Origin: Rhodocyclus gracilis
GTDB lineage: Bacteria > Pseudomonadota > Gammaproteobacteria > Burkholderiales > Rhodocyclaceae
Reading direction: 5' to 3'
NCBI RefSeq assembly: GCF_009617575.1
Contig: NZ_WIXJ01000003.1
Coordinates: forward strand, 124,001-188,000
Length of the DNA: 64,000 bases
The notes beneath the pieces are model-generated. The model was not told the origin of the DNA, made no database searches, and was given only the letters and a program-made list of their open reading frames with translations. Position numbers and translations under genes: made by a program. Positions 3,835-61,718 of the stretch are shown piece after piece; position 1 is the stretch's first letter; every line of letters starts with the position of its first letter.

Positions 3835-3845
3835 GCGGCGTCCGG

Positions 3846-4310
3846 TTACTGTTTCAGGGTGTGCGCGGCTTTTTCGTTGATCTCGCGGCTGCCGGCGTCA
3901 TTGATCGCTTTGGTAGCCTCCGGCGGCATGTAGTTCTCGTCGTGCTTGGCGAGGACTTCGCTGGCGACGAAGAGGCCGTCGGCACCGAGTTTGCCTTGCG
4001 CGACGACGCCTTTGCCTTCGCGGAAGAGGTCGGGAAGGATGCCCTTGTAGGCGACGGTCATGTCCTTGACCGTGTCGGTGATGACAAAGCGCACGGTGAC
4101 GCCGTCAGCGTCGCGCGACAGCGAGCCTTCCTTGACGAGGCCGCCGACGCGGAACAGGCGATCCTTCGGCGCTTCGCCGGTGGCCACCTGCGTCGGCGAG
4201 AAGAAGAAGACCAGATTGCTCTGGAAGGCGTTCAGCACCAGCGCGGCGGCGATGCCGAGCACGGCGAGGCCGCCGACAATCAGGGCGATACGTTGTTGAC
4301 GGGCTTTCAT
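3846..4310 (-). CDS. ccmE: Periplasmic haem chaperone CcmE
   Basis: 154 aa. A cytoplasmic N-terminus and single membrane anchor (residues 8-27) precede a beta-barrel OB-fold domain. The C-terminal motif [12 protein letters not shown] contains His123, the residue that binds haem covalently, and Tyr127, a haem-iron ligand. CcmE receives haem from CcmC and hands it to CcmF/CcmH. Start and ccmD stop overlap as ATGA at 4307-4310. Confidence 0.95.
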
Positions 4311-4510
4311 GCGCGGCTCCTCGGGGCTTGGCCGGTGCTGCGTCCGTCGGCGGCCAGTTGGCGGCGGATCTGCGCGATCAGGGTGCGTTGGCGGCGGGCG
4401 AGGAGAACAGGTTCGAGCGCCATGACGAGCGCCGTCGCCGCGACCGAGCCCCAGACGTAGAGTCCGTAGCCACCCATTGCCAGAAATTCGGAAAAACTGT
4501 TCCAGACCAT
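4307..4510 (-). CDS. ccmD: Haem exporter accessory protein CcmD
   Basis: 67 aa. The sequence [11 protein letters not shown] followed by one membrane helix and a basic cytoplasmic tail is the usual CcmD pattern. CcmD helps release holo-CcmE from the CcmABC complex. It sits between ccmC (57 nt upstream) and ccmE (4-base overlap), as in most ccm operons. Confidence 0.9.
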
Positions 4511-4567
4511 CGTGCCGGTTTCCTTGTCAGCGGGCGGCAGAAAACCGCCCGGTGTGTCTCGTGTCGT

Positions 4568-5320
4568 CTAGCGGGCTGCCGACGTCAGGCGCTGGCGGAC
4601 CCATTCGGTGCCGCGTTCGCGTTCGAGGATGATCGAGCGTACGCGCATCAGCGCGACGGCGATGCTGTACATCCAGAAGGCCAGCGCGCAGAGCAGCATG
4701 CCCCAGAGCATCGTCGTCGCCATCGACGGCGATTTGCTAAGACTGACGGAGGCACCCTGATGCAGGGTATTCCACCATTTCACCGAGAAATAAATGATCG
4801 GGATGTTCACCGCACCCACCAGCGCGAGAATGGCGCCGGCCTTGTCGGCGCGGCGCGGATCGTCGATCGCCGCCTGCAGCGCGATGAAGCCGATGTAGAG
4901 GAAGAAAAGGATCAGTTCGGAGGTCAGCCGCGCGTCCCACACCCACCAGGCGCCCCACATCGGCTTGCCCCAGAAGGCGCCGGTCCACAGCGCGAGGAGG
5001 GTGAGCAGCGCACCGGTCGGCGCCAGCGCGCTGGCCATCATGCCCGACAGACGCGTCTTGTAGATCAGGCCGATCGCCGCCCAGAAGGCCATCACCAGAT
5101 AGATGAACATCGACATCCACGCGGCCGGCACGTGCAGGAAGATGATGCGATAGCCCTCCCCCTGCTGCGCGTCGGTCGGCGCGACGAAGAAGCCGATATA
5201 CAGGCCGGCGGCGCCCAGTACGGCGGCAAGCGCCCAGAACCAGGGAATCATCTTGCCGGCAAGCGGGTAGAAGCTTTGCGGTGAAGCGAATTTGAACCAG
5301 TTGAGCAGACCGTTGTTCAT
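4568..5320 (-). CDS. ccmC: Haem transporter/handling protein CcmC
   Basis: 250 aa from the ATG at 5320 (MNNGLLNWFKFASP). The open frame extends upstream to 5518, but that part is basic and non-membrane and is not CcmC. Six membrane segments are predicted. The periplasmic WWD motif (WGAWWVWDARLTSE) sits between helices. CcmC loads haem onto CcmE. It follows ccmB after 94 nt with no obvious promoter. Confidence 0.94.
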   Translation of the reverse strand: MNNGLLNWFKFASPQSFYPLAGKMIPWFWALAAVLGAAGLYIGFFVAPTDAQQGEGYRIIFLHVPAAWMSMFIYLVMAFWAAIGLIYKTRLSGMMASALAPTGALLTLLALWTGAFWGKPMWGAWWVWDARLTSELILFFLYIGFIALQAAIDDPRRADKAGAILALVGAVNIPIIYFSVKWWNTLHQGASVSLSKSPSMATTMLWGMLLCALAFWMYSIAVALMRVRSIILERERGTEWVRQRLTSAAR

Positions 5321-5414
5321 TGCATCCTTACCTGCACTTGAGGCGAAGTGGCGAAGTGCGTCGCCGATGGGCGGGGGCCGACGAGCGCGCAGCGAGGCGT
5401 CATTCGCCGCTCCC

Positions 5415-6083
5415 CTATTCGAGCGCGATGCGCAGCGCGGCGGCGGTGGCCCACGGCGCGAAGAAGAGGCCACCGAGCGACAGGGCCGCCAGCACCGACA
5501 GGTGCGCCTGCGCAGCAATGCCGCCGGCCGTCGCGTCTACCGCTCCGGCGCCGAAGATCAACACGGGAATGTACAACGGCAGCACCAATAACGACAGCAG
5601 GACGCCGCCGCCGCGCAGGCCGAGCGTCAGCGCGGCGCCGATGGCGCCGATGGCGGAGAGCGCCGGCGTACCGATGGCGAGCGCCAGGACCAGGGTCCAC
5701 ACGGCGTCGCCGGGCAGGTCGAACTGCATGCCGATCAGCGGCGACAGCAGTGTCAGCGGCAACCCCGAGGAGAGCCAGTGCGCCAGCGTTTTGCCGAAGA
5801 CGGCGACGGCCAGCGGCTGCGGTGTCAGTGCCAGCTGTTCGAGCGTGCCGTCGCGGAAGTCGTCGGCAAAAAGGCGCGGCAGGGAGAGCATCGTTGCCAG
5901 TAGCGCGGCCACCCAGAGGACGCCGGGCGCCAGCCGCCGCAGCAGATCGGGTTCCGGCCCGACGCCAAGCGGGAAGAGGCTGACGACAATGATGAAGAAA
6001 AACAGTGCCGAGACGATATCCGCCTGCCGCCGCATGGCGAGGCGCAGGTCGCGGGCGACCACGGTTTTCAGCAGCGCCAGCAT
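5415..6083 (-). CDS. ccmB: Haem exporter ABC permease CcmB
   Basis: 222 aa with six hydrophobic segments. It starts MLALLKTVVARDLRLAMRR and contains the conserved FFFIIVVSLFPLGVGP and DDFRDGTLEQL stretches typical of CcmB. It is the membrane partner of the ATPase CcmA in the CcmABC complex that releases holo-CcmE. The start lies 1 nt after the ccmA stop (6085), implying coupling. Confidence 0.94.
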   Translation of the reverse strand: MLALLKTVVARDLRLAMRRQADIVSALFFFIIVVSLFPLGVGPEPDLLRRLAPGVLWVAALLATMLSLPRLFADDFRDGTLEQLALTPQPLAVAVFGKTLAHWLSSGLPLTLLSPLIGMQFDLPGDAVWTLVLALAIGTPALSAIGAIGAALTLGLRGGGVLLSLLVLPLYIPVLIFGAGAVDATAGGIAAQAHLSVLAALSLGGLFFAPWATAAALRIALE

Positions 6084-6084
6084 G

Positions 6085-6702
6085 TCAGTGACCCAGCCGT
6101 AATTCGCGGACCGTGCCCGCCGTCAGCGCCACGGCCTGGTGAGTGGTCAGGACGGCGAGACCGCCGCGTTGCAGGTGGGCGCCGATCAGTCCGGCGACCA
6201 TGGCGACGGCCGCGACATCGAGCGCGACGTACGGTTCGTCGAGCACCCACAGGGCACGCCGCTCGTGTACCAGCCGAGCCAGCGCAACGCGCCGTTTCTG
6301 CCCCTGCGAGAGATAGCGGCAGGGCAGGTCTTCGCGACCGGCGAGGCCGACCGTGGCGAGGGCGTCGAGCGCCGTTTCTTCGGCGAGCGATTCGCCCGCC
6401 AGATGCGCCGTCGTCAGTAGATTCTCCAGCGGCGTCAGTTCTTCCTTGATGGCGTTGTGGTGGCCGAGGTAACACAGTTCGGCGCGGAATTCGGCTCCCA
6501 ACTGGTTTGTCGGCTGGTCGCGCCAGCGGATCTCGCCCGTGGCAGGCGGCGTCAGGCCACAGATCATGCGCAGCAGACTGGTCTTGCCAGCGCCGTTGGC
6601 GCCGCCCAGCGACAGCAATTCGCCCGCCTCCAGCCGGAAGCCGACGCCAGCGAACAAGCGACGTTCGCCGCGCACGCATTCCAGGTTCGACGCTTCGAGC
6701 AT
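6085..6702 (-). CDS. ccmA: Haem exporter ATP-binding protein CcmA
   Basis: 205 aa from the ATG at 6702 (MLEASNLECVRGERRLF). The frame is open to 6813, but that extension is low-complexity and crosses the likely promoter. It has Walker A GANGAGKTS, the ABC signature LSQGQKRRVALARL and Walker B WVLDEPYVALD. The protein is short, as usual for CcmA. It is the first gene of the nine-gene ccm operon. Confidence 0.93.
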   Translation of the reverse strand: MLEASNLECVRGERRLFAGVGFRLEAGELLSLGGANGAGKTSLLRMICGLTPPATGEIRWRDQPTNQLGAEFRAELCYLGHHNAIKEELTPLENLLTTAHLAGESLAEETALDALATVGLAGREDLPCRYLSQGQKRRVALARLVHERRALWVLDEPYVALDVAAVAMVAGLIGAHLQRGGLAVLTTHQAVALTAGTVRELRLGH

Positions 6703-12620: not shown

Positions 12621-12724
12621 GGATGGTTTCTCCCTGATTCCGGCAGGCGTCCCCGCGTGCCGGATGATCACTATGGAAACCTCGGGAGAAACGTCGGTCA
12701 GTCGCAAGGACACCACGCTGCCAC

Positions 12725-12742
12725 CGTCGCCTCCCCGCGACG
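12725..12742 (-). other. Hairpin just downstream of the cobalamin riboswitch aptamer
   Basis: A perfect 6-bp inverted repeat CGTCGC/GCGACG around a GGGGAG loop, directly 3' of the aptamer and about 105 nt before the btuB start. It could be part of the expression platform. The GGGGAG loop is purine-rich but too far from the ATG to be the btuB ribosome site. Confidence 0.35.
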
Positions 12743-12744
12743 CT

Positions 12745-12930
12745 TCCGCTCAGCGTGCGAAGGCCGGTATCCGGGCTCGCGAGTCTTGATGCGTCGCCTT
12801 CCCAGGCTTGAGGCCCAGTGGCATATCGACGCACCCGCACTCGCTGACCGTTGCGGGGGCAGCGCAGGCTTTGCGTTCCTGTCGGACGCGCACCTGCTTC
12901 CCGTTTAACCGCGGCGAAAGACTTCGCGCG
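12745..12930 (-). ncRNA. Cobalamin riboswitch
   Basis: On the minus strand the hallmark segments appear in order: ACGGGAAGCAGGTG near 12890-12905, CCCCCGCAACGGTCAGC near 12845-12862, GCCACTG at 12816-12822, TGGGAAGGCGACGC near 12790-12806, then CCCGGATACCGGCC (the B12-box end) near 12762-12775. This is the class I cobalamin aptamer. Binding of adenosylcobalamin is expected to reduce expression of btuB and the genes behind it. Confidence 0.92.
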
Positions 12931-12977
12931 CGGCACCTTGCACGTTTTTTTGCCGCCATCAGGCAGCAAAGCGCGCA

Positions 12978-51052: not shown

Positions 51053-51247
51053 TCAGTGCTCGGCGCTCTTGCAGTTGCTGCCCGAGCTGCAGTCCTTTTT
51101 GAGGCTGCCGCAGCCGCAGCAGCCTTCCTGACGAAAAGGACCGAGTTCGGGATGCGTCGCGGCAAAGTGCCGGTAGATGCGCTGCACGAGGATCATGCCG
51201 ACGAGCAGCGAGAAGATCGCGCTGACGGTGACGAGGTAGGTGAGCAT
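51053..51247 (-). CDS. Small Cys-rich membrane protein, NqrM-like
   Basis: 64 aa from the ATG at 51247. One membrane helix (about residues 4-22) then a cytoplasmic tail with Cys43, Cys44, Cys46, Cys53 and Cys59 (EGCCGCGSLKKDCSSGSNC). The architecture resembles NqrM, the small Cys-rich factor that helps build the iron centre of Na+-NQR, the relative of Rnf. It starts 1 nt after the rnfA stop, so it is part of the rnf operon. Role as an Rnf maturation factor is inference. Confidence 0.7.
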   Translation of the reverse strand: MLTYLVTVSAIFSLLVGMILVQRIYRHFAATHPELGPFRQEGCCGCGSLKKDCSSGSNCKSAEH

Positions 51248-51248
51248 T

Positions 51249-51830
51249 TCAGCCTCCGAGTCCCGCAAAGCCCATGAAGCCGAGCGACAGGATGCCAGCG
51301 AGCATCAGCGTCAGCGCCGTGCCCTGCATCATGTCGGGAACGTTGGACAGTTGCACGCGTTCGCGGACGCTGGCGAGCATCACCAGCGCCAGCGTGAAGC
51401 CGGCGCCGCCGCCGAGGGCGAACGTCATCGACTGCGCGAAATCGTAGTCGCGCGCCGTCTGGAAGAGCGCGACACCGAGCACGGCGCAGTTGGTCGTGAT
51501 CAGCGGCAGGTAGATGCCCATGGCGCGGAAGAGGGCGGGGCTGCGTTTCTTGACGAACATTTCGACCAGTTGCACGGCCGAAGCGATGACGACGATGTAG
51601 CAGATGAGGCGCAGGAACTCCAGATGCAGCATGGAGAGGATGATGTTCAGCACGTAGGCCGACAGCGAGGCGATGACGATGACGAAGGTCGTCGCCAGAC
51701 CGAGCGGGAAGGCGAGGCTGACGCTATGCGTTACGCCGAGGAAGGGGCACATGCCGAGAAACATCGCCAGCACGAAATTGCCCGAGAGGATCGTGCTGAG
51801 CAGGATTTGCCCGAGAGATTCACGCACCAT
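51249..51830 (-). CDS. rnfA: Electron transport complex subunit RnfA
   Basis: 193 aa from the ATG at 51830 with AAGGAG upstream. Six membrane helices; GNFVLAMFLGMCPFLGV and LPLITTNCAVLGVALF hold the cysteines that bind the intramembrane 2Fe-2S cluster shared with RnfE. Overlaps the rnfE end by 11 nt. Confidence 0.94.
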   Translation of the reverse strand: MVRESLGQILLSTILSGNFVLAMFLGMCPFLGVTHSVSLAFPLGLATTFVIVIASLSAYVLNIILSMLHLEFLRLICYIVVIASAVQLVEMFVKKRSPALFRAMGIYLPLITTNCAVLGVALFQTARDYDFAQSMTFALGGGAGFTLALVMLASVRERVQLSNVPDMMQGTALTLMLAGILSLGFMGFAGLGG

Positions 51831-52473
51831 GCTGGACTCCTTCCGCAGATGCGGCGGCCAGACGGGCCTTGCGCGCGCGCCACAGCGCGAACACCAGCAG
51901 CCAGCCGCCCATGACAAAGAAACCGCCCGGTGGCAGCACCATCACCACCCAGGGCTGGAAGTGTTCGCCGAACAGCGAGAGGCCAAAGAACGTGCCGTTA
52001 CCGAGAATTTCCCGCACGCCGCCGATCATCGTCAGGCCGAGCGTGAAGCCAAGACCCATGCCGGTGGCGTTGACCGTCGCCGGCCAGGGCGAGACCTTGG
52101 CTGCGTGCGCTTCGGCGCGGCCGAGCACCAGGCAATTGGCGACGATCAGCTGGATATAGGCGCCGAGCGCTTCGTACAGCGACAGACTGAGCGCCTGAAT
52201 GGCGTAGTCGGTGACGGTCACGAAGGTGGCAATGATGCCGATGTAGCTGGCGATGCGCACTTCCTTCGGGATGGCGTGGCGCAGCAGCGACACCAGCCAG
52301 CAGGAGGCGGCGAGCACGAAGGTCGTCGCCAGTCCCATGGAGATCGAGTTGATCGCCGAGACGGTGACGGCCATAGTCGGGCACATGCCGAGGACCATGA
52401 CGAAGATCGGGTTGCGCTCCCACAGTCCTTCGGTGAACTCCTCCCAGGTCGAGGGAACATTGGTGTTCATCAT
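51820..52473 (-). CDS. rnfE: Electron transport complex subunit RnfE
   Basis: 217 aa. Inverted-topology homologue of RnfA: ERNPIFVMVLGMCPTMAV and LIVANCLVLGRAEAHA with the paired cysteines. Six membrane helices. Two adjacent ATGs (52473 and 52470) are possible starts; the first overlaps rnfG as ATGA. Confidence 0.94.
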   Translation of the reverse strand: MMNTNVPSTWEEFTEGLWERNPIFVMVLGMCPTMAVTVSAINSISMGLATTFVLAASCWLVSLLRHAIPKEVRIASYIGIIATFVTVTDYAIQALSLSLYEALGAYIQLIVANCLVLGRAEAHAAKVSPWPATVNATGMGLGFTLGLTMIGGVREILGNGTFFGLSLFGEHFQPWVVMVLPPGGFFVMGGWLLVFALWRARKARLAAASAEGVQHGA

Positions 52474-53156
52474 GGTTTCGTCCTCAGTTGTTCGAGGTTG
52501 GGTACGAGGCGGGGCAGCAGGGCTTGTGCGGAATCGTTGATGCCACGGCCGACGGCGCGCGAGGTCACGGTGGCACCGGCGATGGCGTCAATCTGCCAGG
52601 GCTGCGTCTTGCTGCCGTGCTTGACCGTCTTCACCTCGTTGGCCAGCGCCGACAGATCGGCGTTGAGCTTGACGTCGAGTTCCTTGAAGTTGGCAAGGAA
52701 GTCCTTGTCGATCAGGATCTTGTCGCCAATGCCCGGCGTTTCGCGCATGGAGACGACGCCGATGCCGGTGATGCACTGGCACTCCGGCGAGTAGCCGAAG
52801 AGAACGCGGACGATGTCGGCGTAGCCCTTGGCGGCGGCCTCGGCGGCGATGCCGGCGAGCGCGTTGTTTTCGTCGTAGGCCGCGTAGAACTTGACGGCGC
52901 CGGCCGGCGGATCGCCCGCCTTGACGGGTTCGATACGGGCGCCGGGCAGGGCGTAGAACTCGCTGACCGTCTTGGCGTGCGGAATCACCTTGAAGACGGC
53001 GCGTTCGAGGGCGATGCGCTTGTTGTCAGCCACCGCCGAGAGCGTGCCCTGGTAGGAGCCGACGATGATCAGACCGCAGACGGCGGAAACGAGGCCCAGC
53101 GCCTTGATCATGGCGCCGGTTGGCGTGGCTTGTTGAGCGGAATTGGGCGTGTTCAT
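52470..53156 (-). CDS. rnfG: Electron transport complex subunit RnfG
   Basis: 228 aa. One N-terminal membrane helix (residues 18-36) and a periplasmic FMN domain; the FMN-accepting threonine lies in AGATVTSRAV. Carries electrons on the outer face of the membrane. Starts in ATGA overlap with rnfD. Confidence 0.94.
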   Translation of the reverse strand: MNTPNSAQQATPTGAMIKALGLVSAVCGLIIVGSYQGTLSAVADNKRIALERAVFKVIPHAKTVSEFYALPGARIEPVKAGDPPAGAVKFYAAYDENNALAGIAAEAAAKGYADIVRVLFGYSPECQCITGIGVVSMRETPGIGDKILIDKDFLANFKELDVKLNADLSALANEVKTVKHGSKTQPWQIDAIAGATVTSRAVGRGINDSAQALLPRLVPNLEQLRTKP

Positions 53157-54316
53157 GCGTCGGCCCCGTCTTTCTTGCGCGAAAAGCGCGAGGTGCGCGT
53201 CGGAGCGCGGGTGATTTCCGGTGCAATGAAGTCAGGGTCCAGCGTGAAGCTGGCCGGACGCTTCTGCCGGTTGAATACACCCTTGCCGAACGGCGTCGGT
53301 TGCGAGATGCGTTCGATCAGCGGCATCGAGGCGTTGCCGATGAGGATGGCGTACATGACGCCTTCCGGCAGGCCGCTGTAGTAGCGGATGACGACCGTCA
53401 GCACGCCGATCAGCACGCCGTACAGCACCATGCCGCGCGGCGTCACCGGCGAACTCACCATGTCGGTCGCCATGTAGATGGCGCCGATGATCAGCCCGCC
53501 CGAGAAGAGCATGAAGAGCGGATTCGGGTAATGCTCCGGATTGATCGAGTAGAGGACGAGCGCCAGCGCCGTCGCGCTGCCCAGAATGGACGCCGGAATG
53601 CGCCAGTCGAGGAAGCGTCGGGCGGCGAGATAGGCACCGCAGAGCAGGATCAGCAGGGGCGCCGGGCCGACCGCCATGTGCCCGGACAGCGAGGTCAGCA
53701 GATCGACAGCATTGGCCAGCACGCCTTCGAACTTCCATTTCGCCAGCGGCGTCGCGCCGGCCAGCGCATCGAGCTGACGCTCATGCAGCCAGACGCTGAC
53801 GTCGGCCGGCATCATCAGCGGCATGGCCAGCGAGGAGGGAACGAACTCGCTGAAACGGCCGGGCAGGAAGGACGGCGTGTAGGTGGCGATGGCCGTGGGG
53901 AAGGCCGCCTGAACGAACGCCCGGCCGACGAGCGCCGGATTGAAGACGTTAAAGCCGATGCCGCCGAAAATGGCCTTGCCCAGCGCAATCGCTACCGCGC
54001 CGGCGACGAAGCCCATCCACAGAGGGAAACCGGGCGGCAGCGACAGCGCCAGCAGGATGCCGGTGATCGTCGCCGACCAGTCGGCGAGGCGGCCGGCCTG
54101 CGTGCCGGTGGCGAGAAAGAAACGCTCCGTCAGCAGGCAGGCGCCCGTGACGACGATCAGCAAGGCGGCGGCCGAGATGCCGTACTGGAAGATGAAGAAA
54201 GCGCAGACCGGCAGCAAGGAGTAGACGACGTTGCGCATGATCTGCTCAACGCTGCGGGGCGCCTTGACGTGCGGGGCGCTGCGAATCTCGACGGTGGGTG
54301 TCATTTTGCTGCTCAT
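53153..54316 (-). CDS. rnfD: Electron transport complex subunit RnfD
   Basis: 387 aa from the ATG at 54316 (frame open to 54538, which lies inside rnfC). About ten membrane helices. FMN-attachment motif LAGATPLAKWK, and GGIGFNVFNPALVGRAF typical of RnfD/NqrB. Forms much of the ion path. Overlaps rnfC by ATGA. Confidence 0.94.
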   Translation of the reverse strand: MSSKMTPTVEIRSAPHVKAPRSVEQIMRNVVYSLLPVCAFFIFQYGISAAALLIVVTGACLLTERFFLATGTQAGRLADWSATITGILLALSLPPGFPLWMGFVAGAVAIALGKAIFGGIGFNVFNPALVGRAFVQAAFPTAIATYTPSFLPGRFSEFVPSSLAMPLMMPADVSVWLHERQLDALAGATPLAKWKFEGVLANAVDLLTSLSGHMAVGPAPLLILLCGAYLAARRFLDWRIPASILGSATALALVLYSINPEHYPNPLFMLFSGGLIIGAIYMATDMVSSPVTPRGMVLYGVLIGVLTVVIRYYSGLPEGVMYAILIGNASMPLIERISQPTPFGKGVFNRQKRPASFTLDPDFIAPEITRAPTRTSRFSRKKDGADA

Positions 54317-55686
54317 TTGGCCGATTTCTCCCGCAGAACCTGCTTGGCGACGCGGAATTGCTGGACCAGCGGGATGTTCGACGGGCACACGTAGGTGCAG
54401 CAACCGCACTCGAAACACTCGCCGAGGAAGTAGCCTTCCGCCATCGCGTCGTATTCGCGCTTGGCCGCCAGCATGCCGAGTTGCGAGGGGTTGAGCCCCA
54501 TCGGGCAGGCACCGACGCATTCGCCGCACTTGATGCACGGGTAGGTGGTGACGTTCTCACGCTGCGCGAGGTCTTCGCCACGGAAGACCAGCACGCCGGA
54601 GACGCCCTTGGTGATCGGGATGTCGAGCGAGGGCAGCGCTTGCCCCATCATTGGTCCGCCGAGAATGACCTGCCGCGCGTCGTTCATGCCGGCCGGTGCG
54701 CCGGCGTAGTCGAGGATGAAGCGCAGCGGCGTGCCGAGCGGCACACGGTAGTCGCCGGGGCGGCTGACGCCGGGGCCGGTGATTGTCACCACGCGCTCGG
54801 TCAGGCCGCGTCCGCTGGGCAGGAGACGGCCGAGCGCCGCCAGCGTGCCGACGTTGTTGACCACCATGCCGAGCGAAATCGGCAGCTTGCCCGAGGGGAC
54901 TTCGACGCCGAACAGCGCCATCAGCAGCATCTTTTCCGAGCCCTGCGGATACTTGGTCGGCACGGCTTCGACGAAGATGGCGCCGTCGGGCTGGCCTGCA
55001 GCTTCGTGACGGGCAATCGCCGCCTTGATGGCGGCGACTGCGGCTGGTTTGTTGTCTTCGACGCCGATGATCGCGCGCACGGCGCCCGTGGCGCGCAGCC
55101 CGTAGCGGATACCGGCGATCAGGTCGTCGGCTTCCTCGACCATGACGCGATGGTCACAGGTGAGGTAGGGCTCGCATTCGCAGCCGTTGACGACCAGCGT
55201 ATGCGCCTTGGCGCCCGCCGGGATGGCGAGCTTGGCGTAGGTCGGGAAGGCGGCGCCGCCCAGGCCCACCATGCCGCTGTCGCGGATCGCCTGGCGCAAC
55301 TCGTCGCTGCTGGCCTTGGCAAGATCACGCGGATTGGCGCAGAGGTCTTCCTGGCTGGAGCCGGGATGAACGCGGATGACGATGGCCGGCGCCCACGGGC
55401 CGCGGGCGCTCGGCCGCAGTTCGATGGCTTCGACGACGCCGGTGGCCGGCGCGTGATGCGGCACCGACAGGCCATCGTCGGCGCGGGCGATGAGTTGCCC
55501 GCGCTGAACTTCTTCGCCGACACGCACGACTGGCAGCGCCGGCTTGCCGATGTGCTGCGACAGCGGCACGACCAGTCGCGGCGCGAACGGCAGGCGCCGG
55601 ATCGGCGTGTCCGCCGTCAGCTTGCACGACGGCGGGTGAATGCCGCGCTCGAAGGCTTCGTTGCGGAAATAGGATAGAAAATTCAT
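54313..55686 (-). CDS. rnfC: Electron transport complex subunit RnfC
   Basis: 457 aa from the ATG at 55686 (MNFLSYFR; an alternative ATG at 55716 adds 10 residues). Biotinyl-like N-terminal region, Rossmann part with GLGGAAFPTYAK for FMN/NADH, and two C-terminal 4Fe-4S motifs, CIKCGECVGACP and CFECGCCTYVCP. Site of NAD reduction in Rnf. 107 nt after the nifJ stop. Lacks the long Ala/Lys-rich tail of gammaproteobacterial RnfC. Confidence 0.94.
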   Translation of the reverse strand: MNFLSYFRNEAFERGIHPPSCKLTADTPIRRLPFAPRLVVPLSQHIGKPALPVVRVGEEVQRGQLIARADDGLSVPHHAPATGVVEAIELRPSARGPWAPAIVIRVHPGSSQEDLCANPRDLAKASSDELRQAIRDSGMVGLGGAAFPTYAKLAIPAGAKAHTLVVNGCECEPYLTCDHRVMVEEADDLIAGIRYGLRATGAVRAIIGVEDNKPAAVAAIKAAIARHEAAGQPDGAIFVEAVPTKYPQGSEKMLLMALFGVEVPSGKLPISLGMVVNNVGTLAALGRLLPSGRGLTERVVTITGPGVSRPGDYRVPLGTPLRFILDYAGAPAGMNDARQVILGGPMMGQALPSLDIPITKGVSGVLVFRGEDLAQRENVTTYPCIKCGECVGACPMGLNPSQLGMLAAKREYDAMAEGYFLGECFECGCCTYVCPSNIPLVQQFRVAKQVLREKSAK

Positions 55687-55793
55687 GGCTCGCTTCGCGG
55701 CCGCGAGTAACGACACCCGCCGGGCGCAGGATGGCGGACCATCCTGTCCCGGCGCGGGCGGCGCCTCGCCGGCCTCTCCGGTTCAGTACCGCG

Positions 55794-58700
55794 TCAATTG
55801 AACTTCGCGGCGCGCGCGATCAGCTTGTCGATGCCGGCCTCGCTGGTGTTCCAGGGCGTTCCCGGATGGATGCAGCCGGCCGTGCACTTCTCGGCGGCCT
55901 TGACGAGATCGGCGAACTTGCCGCCCTTGGCGTCGGCGACGACAGCCTGCTTCTGGTCGTTGTAGGCAAAGACCTTCGGCGCGATGTTCATGCATTCGTC
56001 GCAGGCGGTGCATTCCGGGCTGTCGATCCAGATCGCCTCGTAGCCATCGGCGGCGACCGCGGCGGTTGCCGTAGCGACCGGAGCGACCGTCGTGGCCGTG
56101 GCCGCAGCGACGGGAGCCACCGCGGCGGAGACGCCGAGGCTTTCGCTGATGCGACGGATGAGGTCCGTCCGGACGCGTTCGGCAACGGCTTCGGCATCTT
56201 CCGGCGTGCGCGTCAGACCGGCGACGTCCTTCAGCTGACGCCAGTAGCGCAGGCGTTCTTCGGCGGCCAGCACCAACTCTTCGGCGACCAGCAGTCGCGT
56301 CAGCTGATTCTTGCGGTCGGTCGCCCAGATGAAGGGGTACTTGCCTTCGCGTTCGTCGGCGTCCATTTCGAGGAATTCCGCGAGCTGGATCATGTCGCCG
56401 TTCCACGTCTCGGCCGGGGCGCGCTTGAACTGCTTGCCGAAGCGGGCTTCCGTCGCGGCGAAATCGGCAAAGGTCATCGGCAGCGTCAGGGTGCGCTCGG
56501 CGCCCTTCGGGTCGACATAGCGCAGCGTGTAGGTCGGCCAGTCAGTTTCCAGCGACGGGTTGCCTTCGAGGCTGACGCATTCGCTGAAGGTCGTGCCGGC
56601 GTCCGGATCGAACTTGAACAGCGGGTAGGCGCGGCCTTCGACAGCGAGCTTGCTTTGTGCAGTCGTGCGGTCATCGCCGACACCGTGTTCCGGCGGGCAG
56701 ACGGCGTAGATGTTGAAGAGCGCCGGACGGCGGCTGTTCAGGCCGTCGATGAAGCCTTCGAGCAGGTGGTTCACGTTGGCGACGGTGCTCTGCATGACGT
56801 AGGCGGTGCGGTGCGCCATGCCGATCAGCGAGATTTCCTTGCGTGCTTCGCTCTTGCCCTTCTTCGCCTTGCCGAACGGTGCCATGTCGGACACCTGGCT
56901 GATGAAGCCGGAGGTGCAGGCCTGGCCGCCGGTGTTGGAGTACACCTGCGTATCGACCACCAGTACCTTGATCGGCATGCCGGACATCATGGCGCGCGAC
57001 AGATTCTGGAAGCCGATGTCGTACATGGCGCCGTCACCGCCCAGGCTGACGACCGGCGGGCAGAGGTGCCATTCGTCCTCGCTGAACTGGTTCCAGTTGA
57101 AGCGGCGGAAGAAGTCCTCGTGCTTCTCGGCCGAGTACTGGCCGGCGAGTTCGAGTTCGGCCATGCGCACAGCCTTGAAGCCTTCGGCCATCTTCGCCAT
57201 GTGGCCTTCGAAGATGCCCATGGCGACGGACGGCGAATCCTGGAAGAGGTGCGAGGTCCACGGGAAGGGGTAGGGGCTGAAGGGGTAGGTCGAGGCCCAG
57301 ACCGAGGTGCAGCCGGTCGAGTTGATCATGCCCATTTCCGCGCGGCCCTTCTTGCTCGGGCCTTCGACGTAGCGCCAGCGCAGATCCTTGAGCTTCTCGA
57401 GCAGTTGCGCGACCCAGCGTACCCACTGCGGATCGAGCGGGCGCGAGGGTTTGTCGGCCATGACTTGCGCCGAGAGTTCGGCCAGCGTCAGATCGCGGTC
57501 GCTGGCGGCATCGACGGCGGCAACCATGGCGCGCGTGTCGGCGATGTCGATCGACTCGGTGAGCTTCATGCGCAGGTGCTTTTCGAGGCTGGCGATCAGC
57601 GTGTCGAGGCGGTCGACGAATGTCTTGACGCGCGGTTGCATCAGCGCCGTGACGGTCGAGGTGAAGAGGTGGATGGCCGTCTTTTCACCGCAACCCAGGC
57701 AGGCGCCGTCGCCGCAGGTCATCGAGTTGTAGTTGCGCTTGTCGAGCAGCAGCGTGTCGAGCGCGCCAATCTTTTCGTCGAGGCTGTCGATGCGGGAGAA
57801 CTGGGCCGGCGTCGTCGGCAGGTCCATCCACAGGCTCCAGTCGCGCTTCATCTTGGCGATGGTGTCGTCGGTTTGCGTCGTCATCGCCAGCGCTTGGTCG
57901 TCGCAGACTTCGACGCACAGGCCGCAGGCCTTGCAGGTGTAGGGATTGACGGTGATCGAGAAGAGACCGCCGCTGCCCTTGGCCTTCTTCTCACGCTGCG
58001 ACCAGTAGGGCTTGGTGGTGGCGAACTTGAAGTCGCCGACCTGCGCGCGCAGCCAGCCGAGTTCTTCGGCGGTCTTTTCGCGTTCGGCTTCCGGCGCTTC
58101 GGCGAGCGTCGCGGCGATGGCCGTTTCGAGGGCGGCGGCGATGTTGGCGCCGTCGCTGGCGATCTGTTCGCGCAGCTTCTTTTCCAGCGTGCGCACGGCG
58201 CGGCGCAGGAAGCGCGTCGGCTGGCCGCCGGTTTCGATACGGCTGATCGCCGTCGCAAAGACGTCGGCGATGGTCGACACGAGGCCGGGGATGGCGCTGT
58301 CCGGGCAGACCGTGTAGCACTTGCCGCAGGCGGTGCAGTTCTCGGCGGTCCACTCCGGCTGCTCAAAGCGAATGCCGGTCATGTCGCGGAAGACGCCCGT
58401 CGCGGCCGGCATGATCGACATGCCGATGAACGGATCGACGAGGTTGTCCGAGCCGTGGCCGGTGGCGTAGAAATGGCCGGTCTGTTCCCAGAAACGGTGG
58501 ATGTCGAGCTGGCGGCCGTCGCCTTGCGGTTGCAGCTTGAGCAGGGCCGGCAGGCCGGCTTCCTTGACGGCGCCGCCCTTGCGCGTGACGCCGACGACCT
58601 TTTCGGTGATCTCGGTCAGTTCGCGGAAGCCGCGCTCGACGACGCGCAGGTTGTTGGCGACAACGCTCTTACCCTTGCTGCCGAACTTCGCTTGCAGCTG

Positions 58701-60728
58701 GTCTTCGATGGCCTTGAACAGCGACTCTTCGCTCAGCTTGGCGTTCTGCATCACCGGGCTGGCAGCGAAGAAGGCGCCCTGGAAGGCGATGCCCTGCATC
58801 CGCAGTTGCAGTTCGGCACTACCGGCTTCGTCGCGGGCGATCTGGAAGGCGTCGAGATAGAAGACGCGGATGTCCTGTTCGACGATCTGCTTTTGCGCCC
58901 ACAGCGGGAAGTGCGCCCAGGTGTCGGCGCCGAGGTTGGACTGGATGATGAAAACGCCGCCCTTCTTCAGGCCGGAGAGCGGGTTGCTGTGGCCGAAAAC
59001 GGAGGGGTCGGGCGAGAGAACGACGTCGACGAAGAGGTATTCGCTGTTGACGCGGATCGGTTCCGGCGCGGCCGACAGGTAGTAGGTCGTCGGCTGGCCC
59101 TTCTTTTCGGAGCCGTACTTCGGATTCGCCTTGATGTCGTAACCGAGCAGCTCAAACAGGGTGACGGCGAGGTTCTTGCCGGTGGTGATGGCGCCCCAGC
59201 CGCCGATCGAGTGCATGCGCACGGTGATCGCGCCCTGCGGCAGCAGGTTCGGGTTTTCCGAGCCGCGCACCGACAGTTCCTTGATGCGCGGGTAGGCAGC
59301 GACGATTTCCTGCTGGTGGATTTCGTCCTTCGGATTGAGCGGTTCGCGCTGGAAGTCGACGGAGAGGTAGAAGAACTTGCGTTGGGCGCCGTCCGGCAGC
59401 ATGTTTTCGATGGCGCCGATGATGGCTTCCGGCTGCATGTCGCGCGAACCGAGGCCATAGCAGCCGGAGTACAGGCGCGGCATGTCGCCGGGGCCGTAGG
59501 CGGCGTAGTCGGTGTAGGCGCTGCTGCCGCCGGCGAGACCGTTTTCCATGCACTTGACGACGGTGGCGCGCACTTCGCGCATCAGCGGCAAGTCTTCGGA
59601 GAGAGGCTGGTCGGTACGTTCGAGGACGGCAACGCCCTTCTTGCCGCGCAGCACATGGCCGAGCAGGTCGCCGGGGAAGGGGCGGAACATGGTGATGTTG
59701 ACCACGCCGACCTTGAGACCACGCGTTGCACGCAGGTAGTCGGCGACGGCTTCGGCCTGCACCAGCATCGAACCCATGCCGACGATCAGGTAGTCGGCAT
59801 CGGCGGCGGCGTAGGCGGAAACGCGGTTATAGCGACGGCCGGTCAGCTCGGCGTACTCGGCCATGCACTTTTCGGAGAGGTCCGAGATGTGGGCGAAGAA
59901 ATAGGGGCGCTGCGCGGCGACCGCCTGCATGTAGGCGTCCTGATTTTGCACGACGCCGGAGACCATCGGCGCGTCGACGTCCCAGATGGCCGGCACGCGG
60001 CGGCGCGTCGGGCCATAGATCATCTGCTGCGCCGGCGTCGGCGTGTCGATGATGTCGTCCGGGCGGCCGAGGAATTCGGCGACGAGTTCGCGCTCGGGCA
60101 GGCGGGCCGATTCGATCAGGTGCGTCGTCAGGAAGCCGTCCTGACCGACGATGGCCGGCGTCAGCGACAGTTCGGCGGTCTTGCGTGCGATCAGATTGAG
60201 GTCGGCGGCTTCCTGCGCGTTCTTCGCCATCACCTGAATGAAGCCGGTGTCGTCGACGCAGTGGTAGTCGTCGTGGCTGCAGTGCACGTTCAGGCTGGTC
60301 TTGGTGATGGCGCGGCAGCCCATGTTCAGCACGTAGGGCAGGCGTTTGCCGACGGCACCGTAGAGCGACTCGTGCATGAAGGCGACGCCTTGTGCCGATG
60401 AGAAGTTGACGGCGCGCAGGCCGGTCATCGCCATGCCGGCGGTGACGCCGGCGGCGGCGTGTTCGGACTCCGGCTCGATGAAGATCAGCGGCCGTTCGGA
60501 GACGTTGAGATGGCCGGCGGCGACCTCTTCCGCCCAGTATTCGCCCATCTGCGTCGACGGCGTGATCGGGTAGGCGCCCGCGGCGTCGGACGCTTCGCGT
60601 TCGACGTGGATGACCGCGCTGTTGCCGTCAACGGCTTCGCGCACGCCGGGGTATTTCACCGACTGGCCTTCCTTGGTGCCCGAGGTGCTACTTTCCAGTA
60701 ACGAGAAATGAAACAGCTTCTTCAACAT
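55794..60728 (-). CDS. nifJ: Giant pyruvate:ferredoxin oxidoreductase with fused ferredoxin domain
   Basis: 1644 aa against about 1170-1200 for usual NifJ. Order: pyrimidine-binding and middle domains (about 25-420), gamma-like domain (about 490-690), two 4Fe-4S motifs (Cys798-Cys808 and Cys932-Cys942) separated by about 124 residues instead of about 45, proximal-cluster cysteines Cys1005, Cys1010, Cys1013 and Cys1271, TPP site GDG (1231-1233) with NTGG (1265-1268), an Ala/Val/Thr-rich linker (about 1534-1560), and a C-terminal single-cluster ferredoxin domain (Cys1573, Cys1576, Cys1579 and Cys1615 or Cys1619). It oxidises pyruvate (or a related 2-oxoacid) to acetyl-CoA and CO2. It lies inside the rnf operon, 108 nt after rnfB. 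Confidence 0.93.
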   Translation of the reverse strand: MLKKLFHFSLLESSTSGTKEGQSVKYPGVREAVDGNSAVIHVEREASDAAGAYPITPSTQMGEYWAEEVAAGHLNVSERPLIFIEPESEHAAAGVTAGMAMTGLRAVNFSSAQGVAFMHESLYGAVGKRLPYVLNMGCRAITKTSLNVHCSHDDYHCVDDTGFIQVMAKNAQEAADLNLIARKTAELSLTPAIVGQDGFLTTHLIESARLPERELVAEFLGRPDDIIDTPTPAQQMIYGPTRRRVPAIWDVDAPMVSGVVQNQDAYMQAVAAQRPYFFAHISDLSEKCMAEYAELTGRRYNRVSAYAAADADYLIVGMGSMLVQAEAVADYLRATRGLKVGVVNITMFRPFPGDLLGHVLRGKKGVAVLERTDQPLSEDLPLMREVRATVVKCMENGLAGGSSAYTDYAAYGPGDMPRLYSGCYGLGSRDMQPEAIIGAIENMLPDGAQRKFFYLSVDFQREPLNPKDEIHQQEIVAAYPRIKELSVRGSENPNLLPQGAITVRMHSIGGWGAITTGKNLAVTLFELLGYDIKANPKYGSEKKGQPTTYYLSAAPEPIRVNSEYLFVDVVLSPDPSVFGHSNPLSGLKKGGVFIIQSNLGADTWAHFPLWAQKQIVEQDIRVFYLDAFQIARDEAGSAELQLRMQGIAFQGAFFAASPVMQNAKLSEESLFKAIEDQLQAKFGSKGKSVVANNLRVVERGFRELTEITEKVVGVTRKGGAVKEAGLPALLKLQPQGDGRQLDIHRFWEQTGHFYATGHGSDNLVDPFIGMSIMPAATGVFRDMTGIRFEQPEWTAENCTACGKCYTVCPDSAIPGLVSTIADVFATAISRIETGGQPTRFLRRAVRTLEKKLREQIASDGANIAAALETAIAATLAEAPEAEREKTAEELGWLRAQVGDFKFATTKPYWSQREKKAKGSGGLFSITVNPYTCKACGLCVEVCDDQALAMTTQTDDTIAKMKRDWSLWMDLPTTPAQFSRIDSLDEKIGALDTLLLDKRNYNSMTCGDGACLGCGEKTAIHLFTSTVTALMQPRVKTFVDRLDTLIASLEKHLRMKLTESIDIADTRAMVAAVDAASDRDLTLAELSAQVMADKPSRPLDPQWVRWVAQLLEKLKDLRWRYVEGPSKKGRAEMGMINSTGCTSVWASTYPFSPYPFPWTSHLFQDSPSVAMGIFEGHMAKMAEGFKAVRMAELELAGQYSAEKHEDFFRRFNWNQFSEDEWHLCPPVVSLGGDGAMYDIGFQNLSRAMMSGMPIKVLVVDTQVYSNTGGQACTSGFISQVSDMAPFGKAKKGKSEARKEISLIGMAHRTAYVMQSTVANVNHLLEGFIDGLNSRRPALFNIYAVCPPEHGVGDDRTTAQSKLAVEGRAYPLFKFDPDAGTTFSECVSLEGNPSLETDWPTYTLRYVDPKGAERTLTLPMTFADFAATEARFGKQFKRAPAETWNGDMIQLAEFLEMDADEREGKYPFIWATDRKNQLTRLLVAEELVLAAEERLRYWRQLKDVAGLTRTPEDAEAVAERVRTDLIRRISESLGVSAAVAPVAAATATTVAPVATATAAVAADGYEAIWIDSPECTACDECMNIAPKVFAYNDQKQAVVADAKGGKFADLVKAAEKCTAGCIHPGTPWNTSEAGIDKLIARAAKFN

Positions 60729-60836
60729 GGCAGGATGCTCCGGATCAATGAATGCGGTGATTTCCCCGGCACAGGGGCGCGTGCAACGCCGGCCGGTGTG
60801 TCGGGGAGAGAAGAATGGGCATGGGCGACGCTGGCG

Positions 60837-61718
60837 TCAGGAATGCAGCAGCGGCAGATCGTTGGTGCGCAGGATGCGGCGGGCGGCCATACCCTTGATC
60901 GGGCGGTCTGGCGTCGCGTACCAGACGATGGCGCCGGAGGCGCAGCGCTCGATGTCGGAGCGTTTCGCCTGATCGCGTCGCGCCGGGTCGATGACGGCGA
61001 GGTTCTGGTCGATGCGGATGAGATCGGGGGCGGCATCGGCAACGCATTTGCCGCAGGCCGTGCAGGCCACTTCGCAGGCCGCTTCGGCGACGTCGCCTTC
61101 CGCGCGGTTCTTGCAGGCGACCCAGAGTGCGTGTTTGACGGACTCAATGGAGAAGAGGCCTTTCGGGCAGGCGTCGACACAATCGCCACAGGCGGTGCAT
61201 TTTTCAGCATCGACAACCGGCAGGCCGTGGGCGTCGAGGGCCAGCGCGCCAAACTGGCAGACGCTGACACAGTCGCCAAGGCCGAGGCAGCCCCATGCGC
61301 ATTCCTTGCCGCCACCGCCCACGACCGTCGCGGCGCGGCAGGTCTTCAGGCCGGCGTAGCGGGCGCGCAGGAAAGCGACGTGGCGTCCGCCGCCACAGGC
61401 GAGGCGGGCGATCTTGCGCTCGATGCTGCCGGCGTCAACGCCGAGCAGATTGGCGATGTCTTCGCGTTGCTTCGGCGAACTGACCGTGCATTGCGCCGGC
61501 ACGACTTCGCCGTCGACGGCCTTTTCGGCAAAGGCGCGGCAGCCGGCTTGCCCGCAGGCACCACAGTTTGATTTGGGGAGCAGGTCTTCGACCTCGCCGA
61601 TGCGGGGGTCTTCCCAGACGTAGAGCTTGCGATTGGCAGCCGCCAGCATCGCCGCCAGGAAAATTCCCAGGGCCGCCATGAAGCCGCCTGCCACCGCCAG
61701 TGTCGATACCGATTCCAT
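60837..61718 (-). CDS. rnfB: Electron transport complex subunit RnfB, long multi-cluster form
   Basis: 293 aa from the ATG at 61718 (MESVSTLAVAGGF); E. coli RsxB has 192. A membrane anchor (about residues 5-27) and the NCGACGQAGC cluster (Cys52, 55, 60, 77) are followed by CAWGCLGLGDCVSVC (from Cys140), CTACGDCVDACP (174-184) and EVACTACGKC (Cys219-225), so at least four Fe-S clusters. This long type is known from anaerobes. RnfB takes electrons from reduced ferredoxin. First gene of the operon, followed by nifJ. Confidence 0.93.
   Translation of the reverse strand: MESVSTLAVAGGFMAALGIFLAAMLAAANRKLYVWEDPRIGEVEDLLPKSNCGACGQAGCRAFAEKAVDGEVVPAQCTVSSPKQREDIANLLGVDAGSIERKIARLACGGGRHVAFLRARYAGLKTCRAATVVGGGGKECAWGCLGLGDCVSVCQFGALALDAHGLPVVDAEKCTACGDCVDACPKGLFSIESVKHALWVACKNRAEGDVAEAACEVACTACGKCVADAAPDLIRIDQNLAVIDPARRDQAKRSDIERCASGAIVWYATPDRPIKGMAARRILRTNDLPLLHS

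Follow-up and report, generated by a model that had tools for sequence, protein, structure and literature searches.

In acetogens the genes of the Rnf complex follow the order rnfC-D-G-E-A, with rnfB at an end. In the Solemya velum symbiont, the available passages of the 2014 report place a gene for pyruvate:ferredoxin oxidoreductase (PFOR) between rnfB2 and rnfC2 of the rnf2 (rnfBCDGEA) cluster, and the idea that pyruvate feeds Rnf was printed there (PMC4287430). For Allochromatium vinosum the accessible part of the description calls the role of an extra Rnf cluster 'entirely unclear' (PMC3368242), and for Endoriftia the authors, in the text available, left the direction of RNF and PFOR isoforms undecided (PMC11636981). 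The subject of the present analysis is an operon at positions 51053-61718 of a 64,000-nucleotide stretch of DNA (the window; contig NZ_WIXJ01000003.1, positions 124,001 to 188,000) from the 2.93 Mb genome of Rhodocyclus gracilis, a photosynthetic member of the genus Rhodocyclus. All its genes lie on the minus strand: rnfB comes first, followed by a PFOR-type gene, then by rnfC, D, G, E and A, and finally by a small gene for a Cys-rich protein. This gene order had been proposed before from the letters alone (the original prediction), and it is confirmed by the domains of PFOR and of all six subunits RnfA, B, C, D, G and E, which score over the Pfam cut-offs. The PFOR was found to carry a ferredoxin of its own at its C-terminus. 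Judged from the conservation of this fusion, the operon probably encodes one working PFOR-Rnf unit joined by a tethered ferredoxin.

The PFOR passes the Pfam cut-offs for the POR_N, PFOR_II, POR and thiamine pyrophosphate (TPP) domains and has the Cys residues of the internal clusters, and thus belongs to the PFOR superfamily. It scores 407 bits with the NifJ equivalog model TIGR02176, far under the cut-off of 911 bits, and it has extra domains; the plain label 'nifJ' given earlier therefore does not fit. Its 1644 residues exceed the length of the solved PFORs (1171-1232 residues) by more than 400, and the alignment with the Moorella PFOR covers residues 30-823 and 1228-1378. Two additions were recognized. 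One is a mostly helical insert separating two internal [4Fe-4S] motifs (Table 1). The other is a C-terminal extension of which the final 80 residues form a ferredoxin I-type [4Fe-4S] domain (Pfam Fer4_13). This domain matches the ferredoxin I entries 1dax/1fxr with E = 5.3e-7, and its modelled fold matches Desulfovibrio africanus ferredoxin I (1fxr_A; Foldseek E 0.085, probability 1.00, root-mean-square deviation 1.4 over 58 columns). Across 112 full-length PFORs all 16 cluster Cys are invariant, namely the four of the ferredoxin domain (1573, 1576, 1579, 1615), the eight of the two internal motifs, and Cys 1010, 1013, 1140 and 1344. The linker in front of the domain is Ala/Pro/Gly-rich and 23% conserved (block 1521-1560), and the length of positions 1500-1567 ranges from 52 to 102 residues across the same 112 sequences. 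In a structure model of residues 480-1644 the linker mostly has a predicted local distance difference test score (pLDDT) below 50 and the ferredoxin domain mostly one of 60-86; the mean pLDDT of 70 and the predicted template modelling score of 0.56 mean that domain placement and ferredoxin docking cannot be read from this model. A variable linker followed by a domain with invariant Cys is, at the level of sequence and model, the pattern of a tethered carrier. Thr56, Glu89, Arg139 and Asn1265 are also invariant among the 112 sequences; they presumably have catalytic roles, Thr and Arg as the pyruvate binders in solved PFOR. Their conservation is consistent with pyruvate as the substrate, and the enzyme probably interconverts pyruvate and acetyl-CoA. 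The PFOR gene is broken in two loci, L058 (an in-frame TAG was reported, genome G001) and L150 (two frames), either as pseudogenes or by sequencing errors.

For a survey of the layout, PFORs with more than 50% identity were collected through protein searches, without regard to position, yielding 133 loci, or 121 after removal of 12 duplicates; two of these, L059 and L060, are contig pieces of one gene of genome G025 and are counted twice. One or more rnf genes lie beside the PFOR gene in 120 of the 121 distinct loci, and since the loci were picked by protein search, this linkage is not due to chance. PFOR inside rnf clusters, for which a survey had been proposed along with the original prediction, is thus a recurrent arrangement that extends beyond one genome. 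The full order rnfB-PFOR-rnfCDGEA-small gene was found in 77 loci, and likewise in L037, with a second PFOR gene ahead; another 12 have the full order minus a detected small gene. In two loci (L153 and L210) rnfB is located 3' of rnfA, so that the siting of PFOR between rnfB and rnfC, on which the original prediction had built, is not essential. The remaining rnf-linked loci have this order in shorter form.

Within the family, 28 of 150 genomes harbour an orthologue, selected at an identity of at least 66% from 85 genomes with any match. At the level of the order, 17 of 399 genomes have a match at E <= 1e-80, all with at least 57% identity; in the class, 31 of 369 genomes have a match and 21 are counted as orthologues (at least 55% identity); in the phylum, 46 of 398 genomes have a match with 3 orthologues, all from the same order. 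Among the named hosts, which come from the 80 best of 589 confirmed stretches, are Sulfuritalea, Sulfurisoma, Rhodoferax antarcticus, Gallionellaceae, Thiobacillaceae, Ectothiorhodospira, Thiothrix, Sedimenticola, Thiodiazotropha, Venteria and Rhodoblastus acidophilus, and the gene order is conserved from Rhodocyclus to Thiothrix. PFORs 88% identical to that of the window are present in a genome of the same genus (G059) and in the Rhodocyclus tenuis 2761 record. A tree of the alpha-domain region separates the named PFOR groups, with deep branching unresolved and long branches flagged; support for the window-type group (PFOR1) is weak (54/87).

Within this group the ferredoxin domain goes with the linkage to rnf. 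It was seen in 117 of the 121 loci, all of them rnf-linked. In three of the four loci in which it was not seen (L057, L060 and L151) the contig breaks off; the remaining one, L169, is the sole locus without rnf neighbours. Its PFOR gene (2247-6644) encodes a protein 74% identical to that of the window, whose match to the query stops at residue 1505; the frame then runs into a stop codon, so that linker and ferredoxin are gone. No close RnfB was found in the genome of L169, the matches having 31-35% identity over about 90 residues. In the family survey the ferredoxin domain occurs in 32 of 150 genomes, namely the 28 PFOR1 genomes and 4 others, in which it resides in open frames of 720-811 amino acids that are KorB-like by their match to approximately residues 1152-1643. 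A second branch of six loci (L229-L233, L235) encodes a divergent PFOR, 24-31% identical and without fused ferredoxin. The order rnfB-PFOR-rnfCDGEA is present in five of them (L229-L233), while L235 ends at the contig edge after PFOR. In all six the ferredoxin domain adjoins rnfB, either on a KorB-type protein or as a frame of its own (L231), with a KorA-type gene further upstream. The partner of the domain thus varies between the two branches, and its association with rnfB persists. In other PFOR groups it was found in none of the 16 loci examined.

Some related proteins were encountered alongside. In L231 the domain is a 98-residue frame (12649-12942) directly after the KorB frame, either a separate gene or the result of a frameshift. 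A PFOR gamma-domain profile detected no gamma domain in the PFOR-like protein of L229-L231, L233 and L235. A second long PFOR family of the same bacterial family (PFOR2; L061-L068; about 36% identical, frames of 1500-1900 amino acids) has no ferredoxin domain. L224-L228 encode a split PFOR, consisting of a PorA-PorG protein of about 660-690 amino acids and a ferredoxin-PorB protein; the first half is about 39-43% identical to the PFOR of the window, closer than classical NifJ, and the split enzyme possibly resembles the form that preceded the fusion.

The Rnf complex itself looks functional. RnfC, RnfD and RnfE pass the NCBIfam subfamily cut-offs. RnfA (229.1 bits, cut-off 229.3) and RnfB (66.8 bits, cut-off 68.7) fall narrowly short, and RnfG (87.2 bits, cut-off 102) stays under its cut-off. 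RnfB scores 170 bits with structure entry 9eri, 145 bits with 7zc6 and 45 bits with 8ahx, which we take to be the proteins of Acetobacterium woodii, Clostridium tetanomorphum and Azotobacter vinelandii, respectively; by these scores it groups with the 9eri and 7zc6 type and not with 8ahx. Its 20 Cys are kept in 99-100% of 107 sequences. Hallmarks of Rnf are the Cys pairs in RnfA and RnfE and the (S)GAT flavin motifs in RnfD and RnfG. The pairs Cys28/115 of RnfA and Cys31/114 of RnfE were found in 99-100% of 95 and 93 sequences, respectively, GAT in more than 95% of 71 RnfG sequences, and the AT of GAT in more than 95% of 100 RnfD sequences; it is this conservation that suggests a functional complex. 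Two further rnf clusters of the R. gracilis genome are located on contigs C25 and C11.

Taken together, the PFOR would exchange electrons with pyruvate or with acetyl-CoA and CO2, and would carry its own ferredoxin on a flexible tether. The tethered [4Fe-4S] cluster may then donate electrons to, or accept them from, the RnfB subunit of a dedicated Rnf of the clostridial type, which would exchange electrons with NAD(H) while moving ions. The proposed path runs from the PFOR clusters via the tethered [4Fe-4S] cluster, RnfB, and the Rnf flavins and clusters to NAD(H). A dedicated PFOR-Rnf unit had been part of the original prediction. Its linkage proved to be conserved and the fused ferredoxin offers a possible physical basis for it; what fell away is the ordinary NifJ and the essential siting. 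The rnf and PFOR genes would be transcribed together. From rnfC onward the junctions are -4, -4, -4, -11 and +1 nt, in agreement with the overlaps noted earlier for this part. A promoter and terminator scan found no terminator-like match on the coding strand in the two gaps flanking PFOR; the same scan returned 12 terminator-like matches against 7.5 expected, and one promoter-like match (0.9 expected), outside the operon.

Several observations weigh against a single unit of this kind. Gaps of 108 nt (rnfB-PFOR) and 107 nt (PFOR-rnfC) flank PFOR in the R. gracilis genome. L169 is a single metagenome-assembled genome, possibly misassembled. In L037 and L068 a PFOR2 gene adjoins a main-type rnf cluster, and in genome G109 (L238) a PFOR3 gene adjoins a classical rnfABCDGE cluster, in each case without the ferredoxin domain; a place next to rnf thus does not by itself call for the domain. 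As the NifJ cut-off is not reached, pyruvate is only the probable substrate. The region of G109, a genome of the same genus, holds the classical rnfABCDGE genes followed by a PFOR-like frame of 1136 amino acids and Kor-like genes (L238:6441-15305); the internal ferredoxin region was not detected in that frame.

The ferredoxin fusion also bears on the strongest of the competing explanations, that of a passive cluster, long inherited or jointly transferred, whose products share a common ferredoxin pool without special contact between PFOR and Rnf. Block transfer is possible, as the PFOR of Rhodoblastus (Rhodoblastaceae) groups with the Rhodoferax PFOR (100/96), and 27 of 79 loci have another possible user of ferredoxin, an FNR-like gene, after the operon. 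The domain is, however, fused in 117 of 117 rnf-linked loci in which the gene end is seen, is absent in the one unlinked gene, and the gene order is retained from Rhodocyclus to Thiothrix, which makes a merely passive cluster rather unlikely. It is less probable still that the enzyme uses another 2-oxoacid (2-oxoglutarate, an aryl or a branched-chain oxoacid) and that Rnf serves that pathway. The low score with the NifJ model would fit such a role, as would the domain on a KorB-type protein adjoining a 2-oxoacid oxidoreductase alpha subunit in the second branch, but the best solved relatives, 6cin and 1b0p, are pyruvate enzymes, the pyruvate-binding Thr and Arg of solved PFORs are conserved, and genes for phosphoenolpyruvate (PEP) synthase occur as neighbours. 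The idea that PFOR supplies reduced ferredoxin to nitrogenase, the role of NifJ, with the rnf link arising via nitrogen fixation, is very improbable, for although the R. gracilis genome carries nifH, in the family sample nifH over the cut-off was found in 10 of the 28 PFOR1 genomes and in 49 of the 122 other genomes (Fisher p = 0.83; PFOR1 genomes G001 and G056, with partial nifH matches only, were counted as negative), and the R. gracilis nifH at C25:80433 has another rnf cluster (C25, approximately 62.9-66.6 kb) at a distance of about 14 kb. The over-cut-off nifH genes of R. gracilis are located on contigs C25 and C27 and not on C21; with no nifH association and nifH on other contigs, an assignment of the operon as the nif-linked Rnf1 was rejected. 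The second nifH-type gene over the cut-off (G000:C27:22021-22839) perhaps belongs to an alternative nitrogenase.

For a PFOR-Rnf unit joined by its ferredoxin, the direction of electron flow has to be considered. With potentials of about -500 and -320 mV the reaction is near enough reversible to run both ways. Neighbouring genes were counted in the 79 loci whose sequence extends 2.5 kb or more beyond rnfA, the longer of twin loci being kept. A PEP synthase gene (ppsA) is present 3' of the operon on the same strand in 19 of the 79, which favours gradient-driven pyruvate synthesis; these neighbours lean away from the pyruvate-to-NAD direction put forward in the original prediction, which had equally allowed the reverse. 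The FNR-like gene never occurs together with ppsA; it encodes relatives of ferredoxin-NADP reductase (FNR) that score under the cut-offs of that family. A divergent LysR gene is present upstream in 24 of the 79 loci. Kentron authors interpreted a highly expressed PFOR, possibly of the present kind, as pyruvate synthase in the available part of their report, and this reading was counted for the synthesis direction (PMC6593406).

Other findings count against synthesis or fail to favour it. Neither ppsA nor the FNR-like gene is present after the operon in the two Rhodocyclus loci checked, L034 and L121, and no divergent LysR gene was seen in these two either. Isocitrate lyase (E <= 1e-60) was found in 24 of 28 genomes with PFOR1 and in 46 of 50 without (p = 0.45), the latter being hand-picked from the 122 non-PFOR1 genomes, so that the comparison covers 78 of the family sample of 150. 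The RnfB is of the type found in acetogens, in which it runs from ferredoxin to NAD, and this speaks for oxidation. So does the reading of the S. velum symbiont authors, in the passages available, with pyruvate feeding Rnf (PMC4287430). On balance, ion-gradient-driven synthesis of pyruvate from acetyl-CoA and CO2, in light or in the presence of an electron acceptor, has about an even chance of being the main use and is slightly likelier than pyruvate oxidation with ion export, for which the chance falls somewhat short of even. Two simpler roles were discarded. Replacement of the glyoxylate bypass was rejected as isocitrate lyase is about equally common with and without PFOR1. Replacement of pyruvate dehydrogenase was rejected as aceE (E <= 1e-100) is present in 27 of 28 PFOR1 genomes, missing in G055; PFOR thus is mostly an addition. 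In R. gracilis aceE adjoins a separate POR_N (KorA-like) gene (G000:C26:74460-78027), and a similar closeness was seen in G066.

It may be speculated, tentatively, that PFOR and Rnf form a supercomplex in which the ferredoxin swings between PFOR and RnfB, and which serves mainly for gradient-driven synthesis of pyruvate. The gradient would come from light or respiration, Rnf would push electrons from NADH uphill onto the captive ferredoxin, and PFOR would fix CO2 onto acetyl-CoA. To our knowledge neither type II reaction centres nor respiratory chains reduce ferredoxin directly, and such a supercomplex, if real, would explain how bacteria equipped with one or the other can run a pyruvate synthase. 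It would also separate the low-potential electrons from the general pool and keep them from oxygen.

The features of the operon are listed in Table 1. The small gene was detected 3' of rnfA in 79 of the 121 loci (the 77 full orders, L037 and L059); it is short, and the larger locus search misses some copies that were seen in a smaller search. Its product has a hydrophobic start, a RRFAxxHPELGPFREE-like motif and a Cys cluster, with Cys46, 53 and 59 present in 99-100% of 79 sequences. It matched no Pfam family at E <= 1, and its NCBIfam matches are weak and unrelated. The description as 'nqrM-like' in the original prediction finds no support: for three members no NqrM appeared among the NCBIfam matches at E <= 10, a result in which the HMMER filters may hide weak NqrM matches. 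The protein is maybe an assembly factor for the Rnf of this operon.

Table 1 Features of the rnf-PFOR operon of R. gracilis, with position in the window, strand and remarks
rnfB	60837..61718	-	293 aa; RnfB of the Acetobacterium/clostridial type, 20 Cys conserved; Pfam and structure-entry matches
PFOR-type 2-oxoacid oxidoreductase with C-terminal fused ferredoxin	55794..60728	-	1644 aa
Helical insert, PFOR residues 823-917	57978..58262	-	about 95 residues between internal [4Fe-4S] motifs; unmatched in solved PFORs
Ala/Pro/Gly-rich linker, PFOR residues 1521-1563	56040..56168	-	variable in length and sequence; model confidence mostly low
Ferredoxin-I-like [4Fe-4S] domain, PFOR residues 1564-1644	55797..56039	-	Cys 1573, 1576, 1579, 1615
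rnfC	54313..55686	-	Pfam; TIGR01945 465.9 bits (cut-off 245.95)
rnfD	53153..54316	-	Pfam and NCBIfam
rnfG	52470..53156	-	Pfam; conserved GAT motif
rnfE	51820..52473	-	Pfam and NCBIfam; conserved Cys31, Cys114
rnfA	51249..51830	-	Pfam; conserved Cys28, Cys115
Small Cys-rich protein	51053..51247	-	64 aa; hydrophobic N-terminus; conserved in operon

With its built-in ferredoxin and its place in an rnf operon, the PFOR suggests a concrete wire from central carbon metabolism to the membrane gradient. The operon is present in cultured phototrophs and sulfur oxidisers, and it allows one to ask whether low-potential electrons are channelled or pooled. One earlier report of the layout itself was found, on the S. 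velum symbiont, whose rnf2 cluster has the same siting of PFOR and the same Rnf order as the window when compared by its description only; the available passages of that report make no mention of a fused ferredoxin, a wider spread or a second branch (PMC4287430). No mention of these three was found in searches of the main texts in an open-licence library that lacks most subscription papers. In Thioflavicoccus and tubeworm symbionts, rnfABCDGE occurs with ferredoxin-dependent carboxylases of the reductive tricarboxylic acid cycle, korABCD, Hdr-Flx and pntAB; this system likewise combines Rnf with ferredoxin-dependent carboxylases, while the part of the report available mentions no PFOR inside rnf (0 occurrences of 'pyruvate'; PMC6315080).

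With the classical NifJ/PFOR enzymes of D. africanus (1b0p) and Moorella thermoacetica (6cin), the PFOR of the window shares domain order, fold family, TPP site and cluster motifs. It differs from these by its length of more than 400 additional residues, the helical insert and the tethered ferredoxin, and the classical NifJ genes of the survey fall apart from it in the alpha-domain tree. The Rnf complexes of A. woodii and C. tetanomorphum (9eri, 7zc6) share the type of RnfB, although RnfB of the window has 293 residues compared to 333 in 9eri and PFOR is inserted in the operon of the window. Pyruvate:NADP+ oxidoreductase of Euglena and Cryptosporidium is also a PFOR with a C-terminal acceptor domain, a flavoprotein reductase for NADP; in the PFOR of the window the place of this flavoprotein is taken by a small [4Fe-4S] ferredoxin, together with a membrane ion pump.

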